Shown here piece after piece: positions 4,498-11,217 of a stretch of 36,149 bases of DNA. A program made the translations under genes and the position numbers. The notes under the pieces were generated by a model. The model was not told where the DNA came from and made no database searches. It saw only the letters and a list, made by a program, of their open reading frames with translations. Numbering within the stretch: position 1 is the first letter of the stretch; each line of letters begins with the position of its first letter. This DNA is from Bryobacteraceae bacterium (lineage in GTDB: Bacteria > Acidobacteriota > Terriglobia > Bryobacterales > Bryobacteraceae): NCBI GenBank assembly GCA_025927575.1, contig JAICLJ010000031.1, forward strand, positions 1 to 36,149, read 5' to 3'.

Positions 4498-5205
4498 CTA
4501 TGACGCCTTTTCAGGCGTCCACGCGATGCTGACTACGCCGGTTCTCCGGGCCAAGGTACTCACGAACACAGGCGTTTTTGTTTCAGAGATCGGGCTGCGC
4601 CATTGAACGCTGCAGCTTAACTCCTGCACCGCGTCGCCCGGTCGATACGTAATCGCACAGGATCCGATTTGATAGCCAGCGGCAGAAAGGCCAGACCGTA
4701 TTTCGGCGTCGCTCGGGCCGTCCGCTCCCGTGACTATGGTCAAGGTGCCGTGCCTGTACTGCTTTATTTTTACCTCGAACCACCTCAAGCCGGTCAGAAC
4801 GAGAAAGCCCAGTACCAGGCCGGAGAAGCCGAGAGCAATTTGGCCGCCTCCAAAGCAAAGGCCGAGCACCGTCACGAACCAAAGTGTGGCCGCGGTGGTG
4901 ACGCCGATGAGCATGTTGCCTCTCCGCAGGATCGCGCCGGCGCCAATAAAACCCATTCCTGACAGGATCCCGAGTGGGAGCCTCATCAGATCGAGATTGA
5001 TAAATGAGTCGGGAGCCCGCCCTGCTTGCGGCAACAGAATATTGGCCTGGATCATCGCTAGGCAAGCAGCCAGCGATACGAGCGTGGTCGTCCGCAGACC
5101 GGCAGGGCGTCCGCGTTCACCGCGGTTGAAGCCGATCAGCAGCCCGGCGGCAAAGGCACAGAGGATTCGGATGGAGATATCGACCCAAGAAAGATGGAGA
5201 GGCAT
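4498..5205 (-). CDS. MgtC/SapB-family inner-membrane protein
   Basis: This is a membrane protein of the MgtC family, linked in other bacteria to low-magnesium survival and to F-type ATPase or envelope homeostasis. The 235-residue product has the N-terminal multi-helix membrane domain with two family signatures. One is Gly-Leu-Leu-Ile-Gly-Phe-Asn-Arg-Gly-Glu-Arg then Gly-Arg-Pro-Ala-Gly-Leu-Arg-Thr. The other is Gly-Met-Gly-Phe-Ile-Gly-Ala-Gly-Ala-Ile-Leu-Arg-Arg followed by Thr-Thr-Ala-Ala-Thr-Leu-Trp. A soluble C-terminal domain of about 90 residues follows. It is convergent with speB, and its start region faces the HdeD-like gene. Only a weak ribosome-binding site is seen. Role in magnesium transport itself is doubtful for this family. 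Confidence 0.88.
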   Translation of the reverse strand: MPLHLSWVDISIRILCAFAAGLLIGFNRGERGRPAGLRTTTLVSLAACLAMIQANILLPQAGRAPDSFINLDLMRLPLGILSGMGFIGAGAILRRGNMLIGVTTAATLWFVTVLGLCFGGGQIALGFSGLVLGFLVLTGLRWFEVKIKQYRHGTLTIVTGADGPSDAEIRSGLSAAGYQIGSCAITYRPGDAVQELSCSVQWRSPISETKTPVFVSTLARRTGVVSIAWTPEKAS

Positions 5206-5406
5206 ACTGTCCAGCTTATTGGGGAATCGGGCTATTCTGCGCGTTTCTCGTACTTAGCAAAAGCTCGAGGCGTAACACTGGCATGCCGTCTCCTGTCTAC
5301 TAGCAACCGTATCTGGGCGGCTCCGCCGATGGAAGAAGCGATTGGCATCACGGCAGAAGGAGTATTCGGAGCAGCCCGAGCCGTCTTGTCGAAAGAGGAT
5401 GCAAGC

Positions 5407-5985
5407 ATGGGAACGACAGTCAAAGGGTCTCCGATTTTCTTTGGCGGTTGGCACGATATTCGCCAAAACCGAGGTTGGCTTATTACATTAGGCGTTGTTT
5501 CGATCATTTTAGGAGTAATCGCGTTGGTGGATTCTATTGCCGCAACCGTTGCCTCCATGATCGTATTGGGATGGGTGTTGTTGATAGCGGGGATTATCGA
5601 GGGGGTGCAGGCGTTCAGGCATCGCCAGGGTGGTCACTTATTTCTGCATTTGCTGAATGCAGTGCTCTCTTTCGTCGTAGGTCTGATGCTGCTGCGGAAC
5701 CCTCTGGCGGGAGCGCTACTGGTGACTCTTCTGTTGGCCACCTACTTCGTCGTAATTGGCATCTTCCGGATTGTCGCTTCGCTCAGCCTCAGGGTTCCGC
5801 ATTGGGGTTGGGCTATGGCCAACGGCATCGTCACTCTAATATTCGGCATCGTGGTTTGGGCCCAATGGCCGGTGTCGGGTCTGTGGGTCATCGGCTTGTT
5901 TATTGGCATCGATTTAATTTTCCTGGGATGGACCGAAGTGATGTTGGGCCTCGCCGCGCGGCAACTCCCGCAAGAACCGGAGTAA
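5407..5985 (+). CDS. HdeD-family (DUF308) membrane protein
   Basis: This is a small polytopic inner-membrane protein resembling HdeD, which is associated with acid resistance in enterobacteria. The 192-residue product has about six hydrophobic segments arranged as helical pairs, with the repeated Gly-Ile-Ile-x(n)-Gly and Arg-x-Pro/Asn-Pro-Leu-Ala-Gly features of the family. The ATG at 5407 is preferred because AAAGAGGA lies just upstream and because the hydrophilic Gly-Gly-Trp-His-Asp-Ile-Arg N-terminus is typical. The frame is open upstream to 5194 but that extension has no family character and runs into the mgtC-like gene on the other strand. The mechanism is unknown. Confidence 0.82.
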   Translation: MGTTVKGSPIFFGGWHDIRQNRGWLITLGVVSIILGVIALVDSIAATVASMIVLGWVLLIAGIIEGVQAFRHRQGGHLFLHLLNAVLSFVVGLMLLRNPLAGALLVTLLLATYFVVIGIFRIVASLSLRVPHWGWAMANGIVTLIFGIVVWAQWPVSGLWVIGLFIGIDLIFLGWTEVMLGLAARQLPQEPE

Positions 5986-6166
5986 CCGTGAACTTCCGGC
6001 GGCTTCGCGAATTCGTTACTTCATTTAAACCAGGGCACCGAGTGTTATTCCGACGATCAGTTTTTAGCCGTTTCGACATCTCATTTGCATAGGCGCCGGA
6101 AATTATTGTAAGCCTTCGAAAATCAATATAGATCGAAACCATCTGAATAAAAGGAGATGAAACGGT

Positions 6167-6613
6167 ATGGAGCAAAGTAAAATTCTTCAAAGTGATCCGG
6201 ATCGCCGCTTTCGGCGGGTACTCGCCGCAAACACGCTGGCCGGAGATTCCGTTATGAATTCCGCCGGTGAGGATCTTGGAAAAGTGGACGAGATCATGAT
6301 CGATATTCCGTCTGGACGCGTGGCCTACGTGGTTCTATCGTTCGGCGGCTTTATGCGCATGGGTAACAAACTATTCGCTGTTCCGTGGGATGTGCTGACA
6401 GTCGATCAAGACCGGAAATGCTTTATTCTTGATGTCGACAAATCCAAACTTGAGGCTGCCCCCGGATTCGACAAGGACAATTGGCCCGACATGGCCGATC
6501 CCACCTGGGGTAAGCAGATCTATAGCTACTACGGGCGGAGGCCGTATTGGGAAAATACAGGCGTCGACACTGAAGAGACGCTTCGCTCAAGAGCCGGCGG
6601 AACGAGATTGTAG
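6167..6613 (+). CDS. PRC-barrel domain protein
   Basis: This is a 148-residue soluble protein with one PRC-barrel domain at about residues 20-95. It contains the pattern Gly-Glu-Asp-Leu-Gly-Lys-Val-Asp-Glu-Ile-Met-Ile-Asp and then Gly-Arg-Val-Ala-Tyr-Val-Val-Leu-Ser-Phe-Gly-Gly, with Phe-Ala-Val-Pro-Trp further on. Such proteins are often stress-induced in soil bacteria and mediate protein or RNA contacts; no enzymatic role is expected. A strong AAGGAG lies 9 bases before the ATG. The C-terminal 50 residues are aromatic (Tyr-Ser-Tyr-Tyr, Arg-Pro-Tyr-Trp) and unassigned. The specific function is not known. Confidence 0.85.
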   Translation: MEQSKILQSDPDRRFRRVLAANTLAGDSVMNSAGEDLGKVDEIMIDIPSGRVAYVVLSFGGFMRMGNKLFAVPWDVLTVDQDRKCFILDVDKSKLEAAPGFDKDNWPDMADPTWGKQIYSYYGRRPYWENTGVDTEETLRSRAGGTRL

Positions 6614-6872: not shown

Positions 6873-8585
6873 ATGGCGAAGCCGGCGTTACTTGCTGTCG
6901 ACGATGAACCGGAAGTCCTGAGATCGATCGAACGCGACTTGCGCCGGAACTACGGCCAGCGCTATCGCATCGTCCGCGCCGAATCCGGCGCAATGGCGCT
7001 CGATGCCGTAAATCGGCTGAAGGAGCGCGCCGAAACAGTTGCGCTGCTGCTTGCCGACCAGCGCATGCCGGTCATGTCGGGAGTTGAGTTCCTGACCCAG
7101 GCGACGCAGGTTTTTCCTTCCGCAAAAAAAGTATTGCTTACTGCCTACGCCGATACCAACGCTGCCATCGCGGCAATCAATCAGGTGCGGCTGGATTATT
7201 ATCTTCTGAAGCCATGGGATCCGCCCGAAACCCATCTCTATCCGGTTTTAGACGACTTGCTCGAAGACTGGCGCGCGCAAAACAAGCCGCCTTTCGACGG
7301 CCTTCGCGTCGTGGGCTATCGCTGGTCGCCGTATAGCCATGCTGTAAAGGATTTCCTCGGCCGCAATTTTTTCCCATATGAATGGATCGACTTAACCGGC
7401 CGTGACGAGGACCCGAGCATACGCCACCTGCTCGATACCGAACTCCGCGACGCCACAAATTTTCCGGTTGTGCTGTTTCCCGACGGCGCCAGGCTCGAAC
7501 GCCCGGAGCCTGCTGCGCTCGCCGACAGACTCGGGCTACAGACTACGGCCGGCACCTCCTTTTACGATCTGGTAATTGCCGGCGGCGGCCCAGCGGGTCT
7601 AGCAGCGGCCGTTTACGGCGCGTCGGAAGGCTTGAAAACGGCACTCATTGAAACTGAGGCGCCCGGCGGTCAGGCGGGCATGAGTTCGCGCATCGAAAAT
7701 TATCTCGGTTTTCCATCGGGCTTGACCGGTGCCGATCTGGCACGCCGCGCTTTGACACAAGCCAAACGCTTCGGCGTCGAAATCATTTCCCCGCAAACGG
7801 TGGCCGGTGTTCGTCTCGAAGATCCGTATCGCATTGTCCGCCTCGGAGACGGCAGCGAGATCAGCTCCCATGCACTGCTGATCGCCAGCGGCCTATCCTG
7901 GCGGAAGCTGAACGTTCCCGGACTCGACAGGCTAACCGGTAAGGGTGTTTACTATGGCGCCGCGCTGACAGAAGCCGTCTCCTGCCGCGACGAGCACGTA
8001 TTTGTGATTGGTGGGGCCAATTCCGCGGGCCAGGGCGCAATGCATTTTTCGCAATACGCGAGCAAGGTGACAATGATCCTCCGCGCCGGCGCGCTGGCCA
8101 AGAGTATGTCCCGCTATCTTATCGACCAGATCGAAGCAGCCCCGAACATCGAAGTGCTCACTCACACGGAAATAACCCAGGCTCTCGGCGAAGAGCACCT
8201 CGAATGTCTGGCGCTGCACAATAGCGCAACGGGCGAAACGGAAACGGTTCGCGCTTCCGCGATGTTCATTTTTATTGGCGCCACACCGCACACCGATTGG
8301 CTCGGCAACCTCCTGGCGATGGATGAGCGCGGCTTCATCTACACAGGTCCCGACACACCGCGCGAGGACGGCAAACGATTGCCGCGCGGCTGGAAAGTCG
8401 ACCGCGAACCGTTCCTACTGGAAACCAGCGTGCCCGGCATCTTCGCGGCGGGCGACGTCCGCCACAACTCCGTGAAACGCGTGGCGTCGGCTGTAGGCGC
8501 AGGTTCCATTTGTGTGCAGATGATCCACGAACACCTTGCGCACCTGAGCCGGCTGGCCGAAAGGACCGCCGCCGCTCATTCCTGA
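6873..8585 (+). CDS. Receiver-glutaredoxin-like-thioredoxin-reductase-like fusion flavoprotein
   Basis: This is a 570-residue fusion. Residues 5-130 are a response-regulator receiver with the complete phosphorylation set: Asp10-Asp11, phospho-acceptor Asp62, Thr90 and Lys113. Residues 144-210 resemble a glutaredoxin/thioredoxin fold, with the usual CxxC position reading Ser-Pro-Tyr-Ser (152-155) and an Asn-Phe-Pro turn at 196-198. Residues 231-560 are a thioredoxin-reductase-like flavoprotein: the FAD site is Gly-Gly-Gly-Pro-Ala-Gly (237-242), then Gly-Gly-Gln-Ala-Gly, the NAD(P)H site Gly-Gly-Ala-Asn-Ser-Ala-Gly-Gln (380-387) and Ala-Ala-Gly-Asp-Val (525-529). The CxxC of true thioredoxin reductases is missing: the position reads Tyr-Gly-Ala-Ala-Leu-Thr-Glu-Ala. 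It is 13 bases upstream of a histidine kinase, its likely phosphodonor. The electron acceptor is unknown. Confidence 0.9.
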   Translation: MAKPALLAVDDEPEVLRSIERDLRRNYGQRYRIVRAESGAMALDAVNRLKERAETVALLLADQRMPVMSGVEFLTQATQVFPSAKKVLLTAYADTNAAIAAINQVRLDYYLLKPWDPPETHLYPVLDDLLEDWRAQNKPPFDGLRVVGYRWSPYSHAVKDFLGRNFFPYEWIDLTGRDEDPSIRHLLDTELRDATNFPVVLFPDGARLERPEPAALADRLGLQTTAGTSFYDLVIAGGGPAGLAAAVYGASEGLKTALIETEAPGGQAGMSSRIENYLGFPSGLTGADLARRALTQAKRFGVEIISPQTVAGVRLEDPYRIVRLGDGSEISSHALLIASGLSWRKLNVPGLDRLTGKGVYYGAALTEAVSCRDEHVFVIGGANSAGQGAMHFSQYASKVTMILRAGALAKSMSRYLIDQIEAAPNIEVLTHTEITQALGEEHLECLALHNSATGETETVRASAMFIFIGATPHTDWLGNLLAMDERGFIYTGPDTPREDGKRLPRGWKVDREPFLLETSVPGIFAAGDVRHNSVKRVASAVGAGSICVQMIHEHLAHLSRLAERTAAAHS

Positions 8586-8598
8586 CCTAGAACACGCC

Positions 8599-10029
8599 AT
8601 GCTGCATGATCTTCGAGATCGTAAGCTTTTCCCCCGATTCACCGACGAACAGATTGAAACACTGAAGCCGCTCGGCAAGGTGATCGAAACGCAGGACCGC
8701 GCCATCGTGCTCCGCGAAGGCGATCCGGAATATCCTCTGTTTTTTGTGCTTTCGGGCAAATTGCGGGTATTCAAACGCCTCGGCGCCGCCGAGGAATTGC
8801 TGGCCTATCACGGCCCCGGCGAATTCGCGGGCGATATCGGCGTGCTGACTGGAGGAGGCGCAACCGCTTCCATTCAGTCGTGTGGAGAATGCTGCCTTCT
8901 GCAACTGGATGCCGGCGCGTTGCGAAAGTTAATTGGCGATAACTCGCCCACGGGCCAGTTGTTGGTTGAGACCATGGCGCGCCGCGCGAGACAGGCCGAT
9001 TCGCACATTATCCAGGAAGAAAAACTGGCGGCGCTCGGGAAAATGGCGGCTGGACTCGCGCACGAATTAAACAACCCGGCTACCGCGGCGCGCAGGGCAT
9101 CGAAGCTAATGACCGAAGCTGTGCTGCAGACGCCGCTGCGAATGCTGGCGATCGATACTCGTTACAACGAGGAGGAGAAGGCGAAGATGCGCGACTTCGC
9201 GATCTCGATTACGAATCGTCCGTCCGCGCCTCCGAAAGATCCGCTGGAGCTGAGCGATCGCGAGGAGGAGCTCCTCGACTGGCTGGAAGCGAACAATGTG
9301 CCACGGTCGGATGAAATATCTCCCGTGTTTGCTGAAGCGGGAGTTACGCCGACGGAATTGACCCAATGGAAGCGCGCTGCGGGCGAGCGCTATTTGCACG
9401 GCATCTATTGGCTGGAAACGGTGATGCGCCTGGCGAGCCTTGCTCGTGACATTGAAACGAGCACCAATCGGATCGCCGAACTCGTGGCAGCGCTCAAAGA
9501 ATACTCCTACATGGATCAGGCGCGCTTCCAGGAAATCGATGTGCATCACGGAATCGAGAGCACGCTCAAAGTCATGCACCACAAACTGAAGAGCGGCGTG
9601 GAGGTTCGGCGCGATTATGGACCAGACCTGCCAAAGATTTGCGCGTATGTTGGCGAATTGAACCAAGTCTGGACCAATCTCATAGACAATGCCGTGGATG
9701 CAATGGATGGCCAGGGCGCTTTAACCGTGCGCACACGAGCCGCGGGTGAGAGTGTTCTCGTCGAATTCACGGATACCGGCCGTGGCATACCCGAAGAAAT
9801 CTGCACCCGGATTTATGAGCCTTTCTTTACTACTAAAGGCCCAGGAAGGGGAACGGGGCTGGGTCTCGATATCACCTACCGAATTGTGGTCTACCGGCAC
9901 GGCGGCAAGATTCGCGTGAAATCGAAGCCTGGGAAAACCACCTTTGAAATCGAACTTCCCGTCAACCCCCCGCGCGAAGACGAGATTCTGCAGGCCTTGC
10001 AGACGAAAGAACAGGAGGAACGCTTGTGA
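8599..10029 (+). CDS. Sensor histidine kinase with N-terminal cyclic-nucleotide-binding domain
   Basis: This is a 476-residue soluble kinase with no membrane segments. Residues 10-125 form a cNMP-binding/CRP-like beta-roll (Phe-Phe-Val-Leu-Ser-Gly, then Gly-Glu-Phe-Ala-Gly-Asp-Ile). The dimerisation/phosphoacceptor helix carries His155 in Ala-His-Glu-Leu-Asn-Asn-Pro. A long helical insertion of roughly 130 residues (165-300) precedes the ATPase domain. That domain has N-box Asn-Leu-Ile-Asp-Asn-Ala (360-365), G1 Asp-Thr-Gly-Arg-Gly (392-396), Phe-Phe-Thr-Thr-Lys-Gly and G2 Gly-Thr-Gly-Leu-Gly-Leu (418-423). It likely phosphorylates Asp62 of the receiver fused to the upstream flavoprotein. Its TGA overlaps the GTG of the zinc-finger gene. 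The ligand of the cNMP domain cannot be told from sequence. Confidence 0.92.
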   Translation: MLHDLRDRKLFPRFTDEQIETLKPLGKVIETQDRAIVLREGDPEYPLFFVLSGKLRVFKRLGAAEELLAYHGPGEFAGDIGVLTGGGATASIQSCGECCLLQLDAGALRKLIGDNSPTGQLLVETMARRARQADSHIIQEEKLAALGKMAAGLAHELNNPATAARRASKLMTEAVLQTPLRMLAIDTRYNEEEKAKMRDFAISITNRPSAPPKDPLELSDREEELLDWLEANNVPRSDEISPVFAEAGVTPTELTQWKRAAGERYLHGIYWLETVMRLASLARDIETSTNRIAELVAALKEYSYMDQARFQEIDVHHGIESTLKVMHHKLKSGVEVRRDYGPDLPKICAYVGELNQVWTNLIDNAVDAMDGQGALTVRTRAAGESVLVEFTDTGRGIPEEICTRIYEPFFTTKGPGRGTGLGLDITYRIVVYRHGGKIRVKSKPGKTTFEIELPVNPPREDEILQALQTKEQEERL

Positions 10030-10298
10030 GCGGCGAATGCAAGCATCTGGCGGAAGCCGATGCGCAAAAGCAGCCGAATACGAATGGCTGTGAAGAGTGC
10101 CTGAAATCCGGCGATTCGTGGGTACACTTGCGAGTCTGTCTCACCTGCGGGCACGTCGGCTGCTGCGACAGTTCGAAAAATAAGCACGCGACGAAGCACT
10201 TCCATCAGACGAAACATCCGGTGATCCGCTCGGGCGAGGCGGGCGAACACTGGGCGTGGTGTTACGTCGATGAAGTGTTCAGCGAGGATCTGGAATAG
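10026..10298 (+). CDS. UBP-type zinc-finger protein
   Basis: This is a 90-residue protein that is essentially one ZnF-UBP domain, the fold that in eukaryotic deubiquitinases binds a free ubiquitin C-terminus. The candidate zinc ligands are all present: Cys5-x-His7, Cys22-x2-Cys25, Cys38-x2-Cys41, Cys46, and His54, His58/His60 and His64, followed by a Trp-x-Trp-Cys-Tyr core (76-80). It begins with GTG inside the stop of the kinase gene (GTGA overlap), so translation is coupled to the kinase. Its 3' end overlaps the convergent hydrolase gene by 20 bases. Its role in bacteria is not established. Context suggests an adaptor, sensor or substrate of the flavoprotein/kinase pair; that is inference. 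Confidence 0.88.
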   Translation: MSGECKHLAEADAQKQPNTNGCEECLKSGDSWVHLRVCLTCGHVGCCDSSKNKHATKHFHQTKHPVIRSGEAGEHWAWCYVDEVFSEDLE

Positions 10299-11217
10299 CC
10301 TGGCCGCGCATCTCGCCGCCGCCATTTTTCAGCGCCTTGTCGAAGAACGCCGTTACGCGCCGCTCGTATTCCGCTTTTGCCACCGAATGCGCTTTACCGT
10401 GTTTGGCGCCGGGTACCAGCCAGAGTTGTTTCGGCTCGCGGGCGTGGGCGAAGTTTTGTTTGCTGTTCTCGACCGGCACTGTAAAGTCGTCCAATCCGTG
10501 GATGATGAGGACAGGCCGCGGGCTGATGCGCGCGATGACATCCATGGGACGGACCGAATCGACGTCGATTCCCGCGCGCTCGTCCGCGATCCAGATGGTG
10601 ACGGGCGCGAACGGGAAAGATGGAAGATGAATGAAATGTTCGAAGCTGGCGGCGATTACACTCGGCGCGTCGCTGAATCCGCAATCGTCCACAACCGCCT
10701 TGATGCGCTTGTCCCGCGCGGCCGCAAGGATCACGACAGCGCCGCCCATCGAGACGCCCAGCGCGCCGATGCGTTGCGGGTCAACGTCGCTCCGCGTACA
10801 CAGGTAATCCAACGCCGAAATGAGATCGTTTTGCTCATAAACGCCGAGCGTCACATATTCGCCGCCGCTGCCAGCCCGGCTCCGCATGTTGTAAGTGAGC
10901 ACGTTAAAACCGGCGCGATGCAAGAAATCGGCGATCGACAGCATCTGGTCCTGCGTATCGCCATAGCCGTTCGCGAGGACGATGGTGCTCCGGTTCGTTC
11001 CCCGGAACCAGCGGCCCACGAGGTTAATGCCGGTCGATGAATGAAAGCTCAGCGGTTCGGCGTGCAGATCCGGGAACGAAGCGAGCGATTGCTCGTAGTG
11101 ATAATAGTGTGGCCGCAGCGCTCGCTCGGAGCCAATCCATCCGACCGTGCCGAGCACCAGCACGGCGGCGGCGCATAGGGGCGCGACTCCGCGCAGCAGG
11201 ATCTTCCGAAACATCAA
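10279..11217 (-). CDS. Membrane-anchored or secreted alpha/beta hydrolase
   Basis: This is a serine hydrolase of the alpha/beta fold. The 312-residue product starts with a basic stretch and one hydrophobic segment (about residues 7-28), so it is either secreted or anchored facing the periplasm. The nucleophile elbow is Gly-Val-Ser156-Met-Gly-Gly. The acid is probably Asp243 in His-Gly-Leu-Asp-Asp, and the base His273 in Gly-Ala-Lys-His-Gly-Lys-Ala-His. An oxyanion-type Ala-Asn-Gly-Tyr-Gly turn lies at 82-86. Homologues are usually annotated as S9/DUF-type peptidase-like or esterase-like proteins; the substrate is unknown. It is convergent with, and overlaps the end of, the zinc-finger gene. 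Confidence 0.85.
   Translation of the reverse strand: MMFRKILLRGVAPLCAAAVLVLGTVGWIGSERALRPHYYHYEQSLASFPDLHAEPLSFHSSTGINLVGRWFRGTNRSTIVLANGYGDTQDQMLSIADFLHRAGFNVLTYNMRSRAGSGGEYVTLGVYEQNDLISALDYLCTRSDVDPQRIGALGVSMGGAVVILAAARDKRIKAVVDDCGFSDAPSVIAASFEHFIHLPSFPFAPVTIWIADERAGIDVDSVRPMDVIARISPRPVLIIHGLDDFTVPVENSKQNFAHAREPKQLWLVPGAKHGKAHSVAKAEYERRVTAFFDKALKNGGGEMRGQAIPDPR

Follow-up and report, generated by a model that had tools for sequence, protein, structure and literature searches.

The contig JAICLJ010000031.1 of a Bryobacteraceae bacterium, analysed here as one window of 36,149 nucleotides, carries three consecutive genes for a receiver domain fused to a flavoprotein, a soluble histidine kinase and a stand-alone UBP zinc finger. 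The association of these three genes is real and far beyond chance. We propose that they constitute a phosphorylation-gated switch built on a flavoprotein devoid of thiol chemistry, with the UBP protein as an adaptor that would connect it to its target, plausibly membrane ion transport under stress. To this reading, drawn from sequences and predicted structures, we assign a probability of roughly one half.

Organization of the three-gene module

The genes and their domains, in coordinates of the window, are the following.

6873..8585, plus strand: flavoprotein of 570 amino acids, composed of a receiver, a glutaredoxin-like domain and a thioredoxin reductase (TrxR)-fold core (open reading frame (ORF), Pfam, AlphaFold model, Foldseek)
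6873..7247, plus strand: receiver domain with phospho-acceptor Asp62, Thr90 and Lys113 (Pfam Response_reg, 9.7e-14)
7290..7538, plus strand: glutaredoxin-like domain, amino acids ~140-222, with SPYS instead of CPYC (Pfam Glutaredoxin in relatives, strand/helix pattern)
7554..8546, plus strand: TrxR-fold FAD/NAD(P)-binding core, amino acids ~228-558, without CxxC (Pfam Pyr_redox_2, 8.7e-37)
8599..10029, plus strand: soluble histidine kinase of 476 amino acids, His155 (ORF, Pfam, alignment, AlphaFold model)
8638..8973, plus strand: sensor domain of the kinase, of the cyclic nucleotide-binding domain (CNBD) type, without the cAMP-type Arg (Pfam cNMP_binding, 2.5e-14)
9163..9348, plus strand: helical insert of the kinase between the two DHp helices, amino acids ~189-250 (conserved motif, model helices)
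10026..10298, plus strand: stand-alone UBP zinc finger of 90 amino acids, GTG start (Pfam zf-UBP, 3.9e-14)

Thirteen bases (8586-8598) separate the flavoprotein and kinase genes, and the kinase and UBP genes overlap at a GTGA junction; the tight series described in an earlier sequence-only reading is thus borne out by the ORF coordinates. The domains named there were recovered with Pfam as well, namely Response_reg and Pyr_redox_2 in the first protein, cNMP_binding and HATPase_c (with a weak HisKA) in the second and zf-UBP in the third.

The association is conserved across phyla

When genomes of bacteria and archaea were scanned, 80 loci were retrieved, and the ORF of the receiver-flavoprotein, obtained in 79 of them, was used for the counts. 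The loci are distributed over 11 bacterial phyla: Cyanobacteriota, Acidobacteriota, Actinomycetota, Chloroflexota, Thermomicrobiota, Deinococcota, Bacteroidota, Pseudomonadota, Gemmatimonadota, Verrucomicrobiota and Thermodesulfobacteriota. A receiver-flavoprotein and kinase are also found on a contig that binning assigned to a Nitrososphaeraceae archaeon, where transfer or a binning error is possible. A related kinase lies within ~4 kb of the flavoprotein in 64/79 loci, several of the contigs ending early, and a UBP gene lies inside the fetched surroundings in 18/79.

The link to the zinc finger was evaluated in 247 Acidobacteriota genomes, of which 37 contain both UBP and the flavoprotein family, 18 only UBP, nine only the flavoprotein and 183 neither. 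The co-occurrence has an odds ratio of 42 (Fisher p = 5e-22) and is maintained when the dominant family is left out (both, 16; UBP only, 17; flavoprotein only, 8; neither, 181; odds ratio 21, p = 5e-10), these p-values ignoring the shared ancestry within the sample. Of 37 loci with UBP near the flavoprotein, 34 have the genes on the same strand; the orders are FHU, HFU, FU and UF, where F stands for the flavoprotein, H for the kinase and U for UBP. Given that several gene orders occur, the link survives rearrangement. That the three genes became neighbours by chance could be argued from the majority of receiver-flavoprotein loci, whose fetched surroundings are without UBP; however, the co-occurrence statistics, the rearranged orders and a fusion of kinase and UBP described below contradict it, and its probability is negligible. 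Hence, the conservation in gene neighbourhoods on which the sequence-only reading had made its proposal depend was found, both for the kinase and for UBP. Its proposal of a two-component system whose output is a flavoprotein is sustained by this association and by the invariant residues given below, and the zinc finger belongs to the grouping too. In the search for a fourth conserved gene of the operon, no family with more than three members appeared among 98 flanking proteins.

The flavoprotein has retained a scaffold and lost its thiols

Alignment of 68 flavoproteins showed the receiver residues D10, D11, D62, T90 and K113 to be invariant. As the same holds for the catalytic residues of 60 aligned kinases (see below), the phosphotransfer residues that had been considered intact in the window are preserved throughout both families. 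Pyr_redox_2 is present in 68/68 proteins, with invariant FAD and dinucleotide-binding motifs. Between receiver and core, Pfam detects Glutaredoxin in 26/68 proteins (best 5e-6), and in the AlphaFold model of the window protein (pLDDT 89.9) strands and helices alternate in this region. The best whole-length Foldseek match of the model is AhpF (4xvg). In structural alignments the core superposes on TrxR structures with Z 34 and on TrxR-fold ferredoxin/flavodoxin reductases with Z ~28; all these Z-scored matches cover the TrxR core, the receiver and glutaredoxin-like part being outside their scope.

The active-site cysteines are those that have disappeared. The CPYC of glutaredoxins is SPYS in the window, the first position being Ser in 63/68 proteins and Cys in 0/68, while the fourth position is Cys in 3/68. 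The CxxC site of TrxR reads G/A/A, with Cys in 0/68. Beside this former site an invariant Glu, E367, is found, and the only partly conserved Cys in its vicinity, C371, is replaced by Tyr or His in 15/68. From the NADPH motif of TrxR, HRRxxxR, a single Arg is left in the family, and the invariant W507 and R511 are placed together in one loop. The flavoprotein thus appears to retain the AhpF/TrxR scaffold and its cofactor motifs without the thiol chemistry.

These replacements bear directly on the idea that the protein is a thiol reductase, either TrxR or AhpF, governed by a two-component system. The closest folds, AhpF and TrxR, would be in agreement with it, and so would the name 'thioredoxin-disulfide reductase' that NCBI gives to a related version with a CNBD; nevertheless, the CxxC and the first glutaredoxin Cys are missing from every aligned protein and C371 is not strictly conserved. 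Therefore the flavoprotein is not expected to work as a reductase of thioredoxin, glutaredoxin or peroxide. For want of these cysteines its interpretation as a thioredoxin reductase or as a peroxide reductase was discarded, and a thiol reductase of any such kind is very improbable. The fusion of a receiver to a TrxR-like flavoenzyme was correctly seen by the sequence-only reading, which overlooked the glutaredoxin-like domain and the loss of the catalytic cysteines. Its suggestion of redox chemistry does not hold for chemistry of the thiol kind, and for the 'adduct chemistry' it also evoked no specific support was obtained.

In a second form of the flavoprotein, a CNBD takes the position of the receiver. 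In the tree, 17/18 of these proteins make up one clade (SH-aLRT 100). UBP adjoins several CNBD-flavoproteins, in Acidobacteriota, Rhizobium, Agrobacterium and Rhodococcus, and in Paraburkholderia it lies beside a bare flavoprotein without any input domain. In Rhodococcus (L142, 1-7939) and in another actinobacterium (L271, 6032-14750) the genes dnaK-grpE-dnaJ-clpB-trxA-UBP-CNBD-flavoprotein follow one another in a single run, so that a chaperone operon ends in the CNBD-flavoprotein/UBP module. Since the CNBD belongs to the kinase in one architecture and to the flavoprotein in the other, this distribution suggests one-component and two-component forms of the same pathway.

The kinase contains a CNBD without the cAMP-type Arg and an inserted helical element

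In the 60 aligned kinases the phospho-acceptor His and the ATP-binding residues (H155, N364, D392, G396, G416, G418 and G420) are invariant, and 57/60 have a CNBD according to Pfam. The CNBD of the window kinase is devoid of the cAMP-type Arg, no Arg is conserved at the phosphate-binding cassette of the alignment, and a loose pattern for this residue was matched by 3/60 kinases, the window's kinase not being among them. The cNMP-binding sensor proposed earlier is consequently present as a domain, but its sensing of cyclic nucleotides is doubtful.

A conserved motif, SDxEDxLxxWLExxGV, corresponds to a helical insert in the DHp hairpin, which the AlphaFold model (pLDDT 89.6) folds into helices 191-205, 215-231 and 237-246. 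Both this insert and the missing CNBD Arg had escaped the sequence-only reading.

The UBP zinc finger lacks the residue for ubiquitin-tail binding

The UBP protein of the window scores 53.1 bits against zf-UBP, versus a cut-off of 22.7, and has a solved relative, 2ida (E 1.1e-32). In 89 bacterial UBP sequences the Cys/His zinc ligands are conserved, most of the aromatic character of the pocket (W32, W78 and Y80) is preserved, an Arg two residues ahead of a zinc Cys is found in 89/89 and W76 in 86/89. In USP5 and HDAC6 an Arg contacting the carboxylate holds the C-terminus of ubiquitin; this Arg is present in 0/89 bacterial proteins, which mostly have Ser instead. Because the residue is gone throughout the set, reading of a ubiquitin tail by the bacterial UBP is unlikely, and the description of the window protein as a ubiquitin-tail-type reader is not supported.

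A related explanation would have UBP reading protein C-termini in general, for quality control, under stress control by the flavoprotein system. Some CNBD-flavoprotein/UBP pairs located near DnaK, ClpB-type ATPases or Hsp20 would fit such a role, as would the retained pocket aromatics. However, the same absence of the carboxylate-binding Arg speaks against it, and chaperone genes are rare near the receiver type (1/80 loci). We consider this explanation improbable.

Fusions suggest other partners. UBP is fused to Kef-like antiporters (Na_H_Exchanger, some with TrkA_N) at seven loci (L054, L143, L155, L191, L264, L265 and L267), and at two of them, L054 and L191, the antiporter-UBP gene adjoins the receiver-flavoprotein and the kinase. 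The membrane protein LtrA (low temperature requirement A) bears a C-terminal UBP in one case (L198, 4685-6109), and separate LtrA genes are found near six further modules (L041, L070, L077, L097, L145 and L147). UBP also occurs joined to a diadenylate cyclase (DAC) domain of the DisA type (L184, 6015-7022), which hints at a connection of the zinc finger with c-di-AMP and, by this route, perhaps with potassium homeostasis. Finally, in one actinobacterium the CNBD, the kinase and UBP form a single protein of 555 amino acids, whose gene overlaps that of the receiver-flavoprotein (L263, 4774-8135). At the same locus a second, lone UBP is situated ~0.8 kb past this stretch.

A model for the module

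We propose a model in which the cytosolic CNBD-type kinase would autophosphorylate at His155 and hand its phosphoryl group on to the receiver at Asp62. Phosphorylation of the receiver would then alter the conformation or the activity of the fused glutaredoxin-like/TrxR-fold protein, which is predicted to bind FAD and may act as an NAD(P)H/FAD-dependent switch or as a reductase of small molecules. UBP would most likely be a protein-docking adaptor tying the module to its target, for which membrane ion transporters involved in stress responses, such as the Kef-like antiporters and LtrA, are at present the best candidates.

Several observations weigh against this proposal. (i) Among 98 genes flanking the modules only two Na_H_Exchanger and two LtrA were found, and most modules are without an adjacent transporter; (ii) 18/55 of the genomes with UBP are without the flavoprotein, and some of these have antiporter-UBP fusions; and (iii) neither LtrA nor Na_H_Exchanger was detected in those genes of the window that were searched with Pfam. 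The transporter target is the weakest step of the model, owing to the many modules without an adjacent transporter and to the antiporter-UBP genomes devoid of flavoprotein.

The flavoprotein could instead be the catalyst itself. Under control of the kinase it would use NAD(P)H to reduce quinones, ferredoxin, oxygen or some other small molecule during oxidative or heat stress; UBP would then be an accessory subunit, and transporters would play no part. The structural match to reductases of ferredoxin and flavodoxin, the invariance of the cofactor motifs together with E367, W507 and R511, and the chaperone and trxA genes that precede the CNBD-type forms in the two actinobacteria are all in line with such an enzyme. 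Yet it leaves unexplained the fusions of UBP to antiporters, LtrA, diadenylate cyclase and kinase, and the TrxR motif for NADPH has been reduced to one Arg. We regard this enzyme as possible, at a clearly lower likelihood than the switch with a UBP adaptor.

Genomic surroundings

Upstream of the module, at 4498-6613 of the window, there are genes for MgtC, an HdeD-like DUF308 protein and a PRC-barrel protein, and downstream the UBP gene overlaps tail to tail, by 20 bases (10279-10298), a minus-strand alpha/beta-hydrolase ORF (10279-11217). On a Paraburkholderia plasmid (L144), MgtC, PRC, HdeD, Hsp20, Clp ATPase and PsiE surround a flavoprotein-UBP pair. A stress island of the tLST type was discarded as a general context, as the gene set is partial and was seen only in the window and on this one plasmid, not worldwide. 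The genome to which the window belongs harbours a second pair of kinase and receiver-flavoprotein (contig C255, 1-1965), cut by the contig end, and a genome search gave a single zf-UBP match, that of the window.

Comparison with known systems

The databases name these proteins 'FAD-dependent oxidoreductase', 'cyclic nucleotide-binding domain-containing thioredoxin-disulfide reductase' and 'UBP-type zinc finger domain-containing protein', names that stand without a tested function; the term 'thioredoxin-disulfide reductase' for the CNBD arm is probably misleading. In the open literature no description of the fused protein, of its CNBD version or of the bacterial UBP proteins was found, an earlier mention in subscription papers being possible. 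This two-component system with an output of a new sort is widespread and apparently unstudied. A receiver joined to a flavoprotein that has shed its thiols, and conserved over many phyla, would represent an unrecognised coupling of redox or nucleotide state to signalling, and the link to UBP suggests what this domain, familiar from ubiquitin biology, might do in bacteria.

In most two-component systems the output is a transcription factor or a cyclic-di-nucleotide enzyme. The module resembles the systems with enzymatic outputs in its intact kinase and receiver residues, and differs from them in the flavoprotein output and in the helical insert of the kinase DHp. As in AhpF and the low-molecular-weight thioredoxin reductases, one or more thioredoxin-fold domains precede an FAD/NAD(P) TrxR core, whereas the loss of the CxxC and of the first glutaredoxin Cys, the N-terminal receiver or CNBD and the W507/R511 loop set it apart. 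The ferredoxin/flavodoxin-NADP reductases of the Bacillus type share the TrxR fold without CxxC, a likeness in fold (Z ~28) rather than a closer kinship in sequence; they are stand-alone enzymes without receiver or glutaredoxin-like domain. With the eukaryotic ZnF-UBP domains of USP5 and HDAC6 the bacterial proteins have in common the zinc ligands and most of the aromatic pocket, but they lack the tail-binding Arg and contain a four-residue insert (VHLR) that includes an invariant Arg.

The comparison with KefF concerns the proposed target. KefF activates the K+/H+ antiporter KefC independently of its own catalysis (PMC10224563), which provides a precedent. Here, too, a flavoprotein is genetically tied to a Kef-like antiporter; however, KefF, an FMN quinone reductase, has a different fold, and in the present case the connection would pass by way of UBP and a phosphorelay and is known from fusions and gene neighbourhood. 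As a tentative extension of the model, the module might embody an independently evolved KefF-like principle, in which a phosphorelay would sense redox or nucleotide state. Its thiol-free flavoprotein, toggled through phosphorylation of the receiver or by a CNBD acting on it directly, would be docked through UBP on antiporters and LtrA and would regulate membrane ion transport without transcription.

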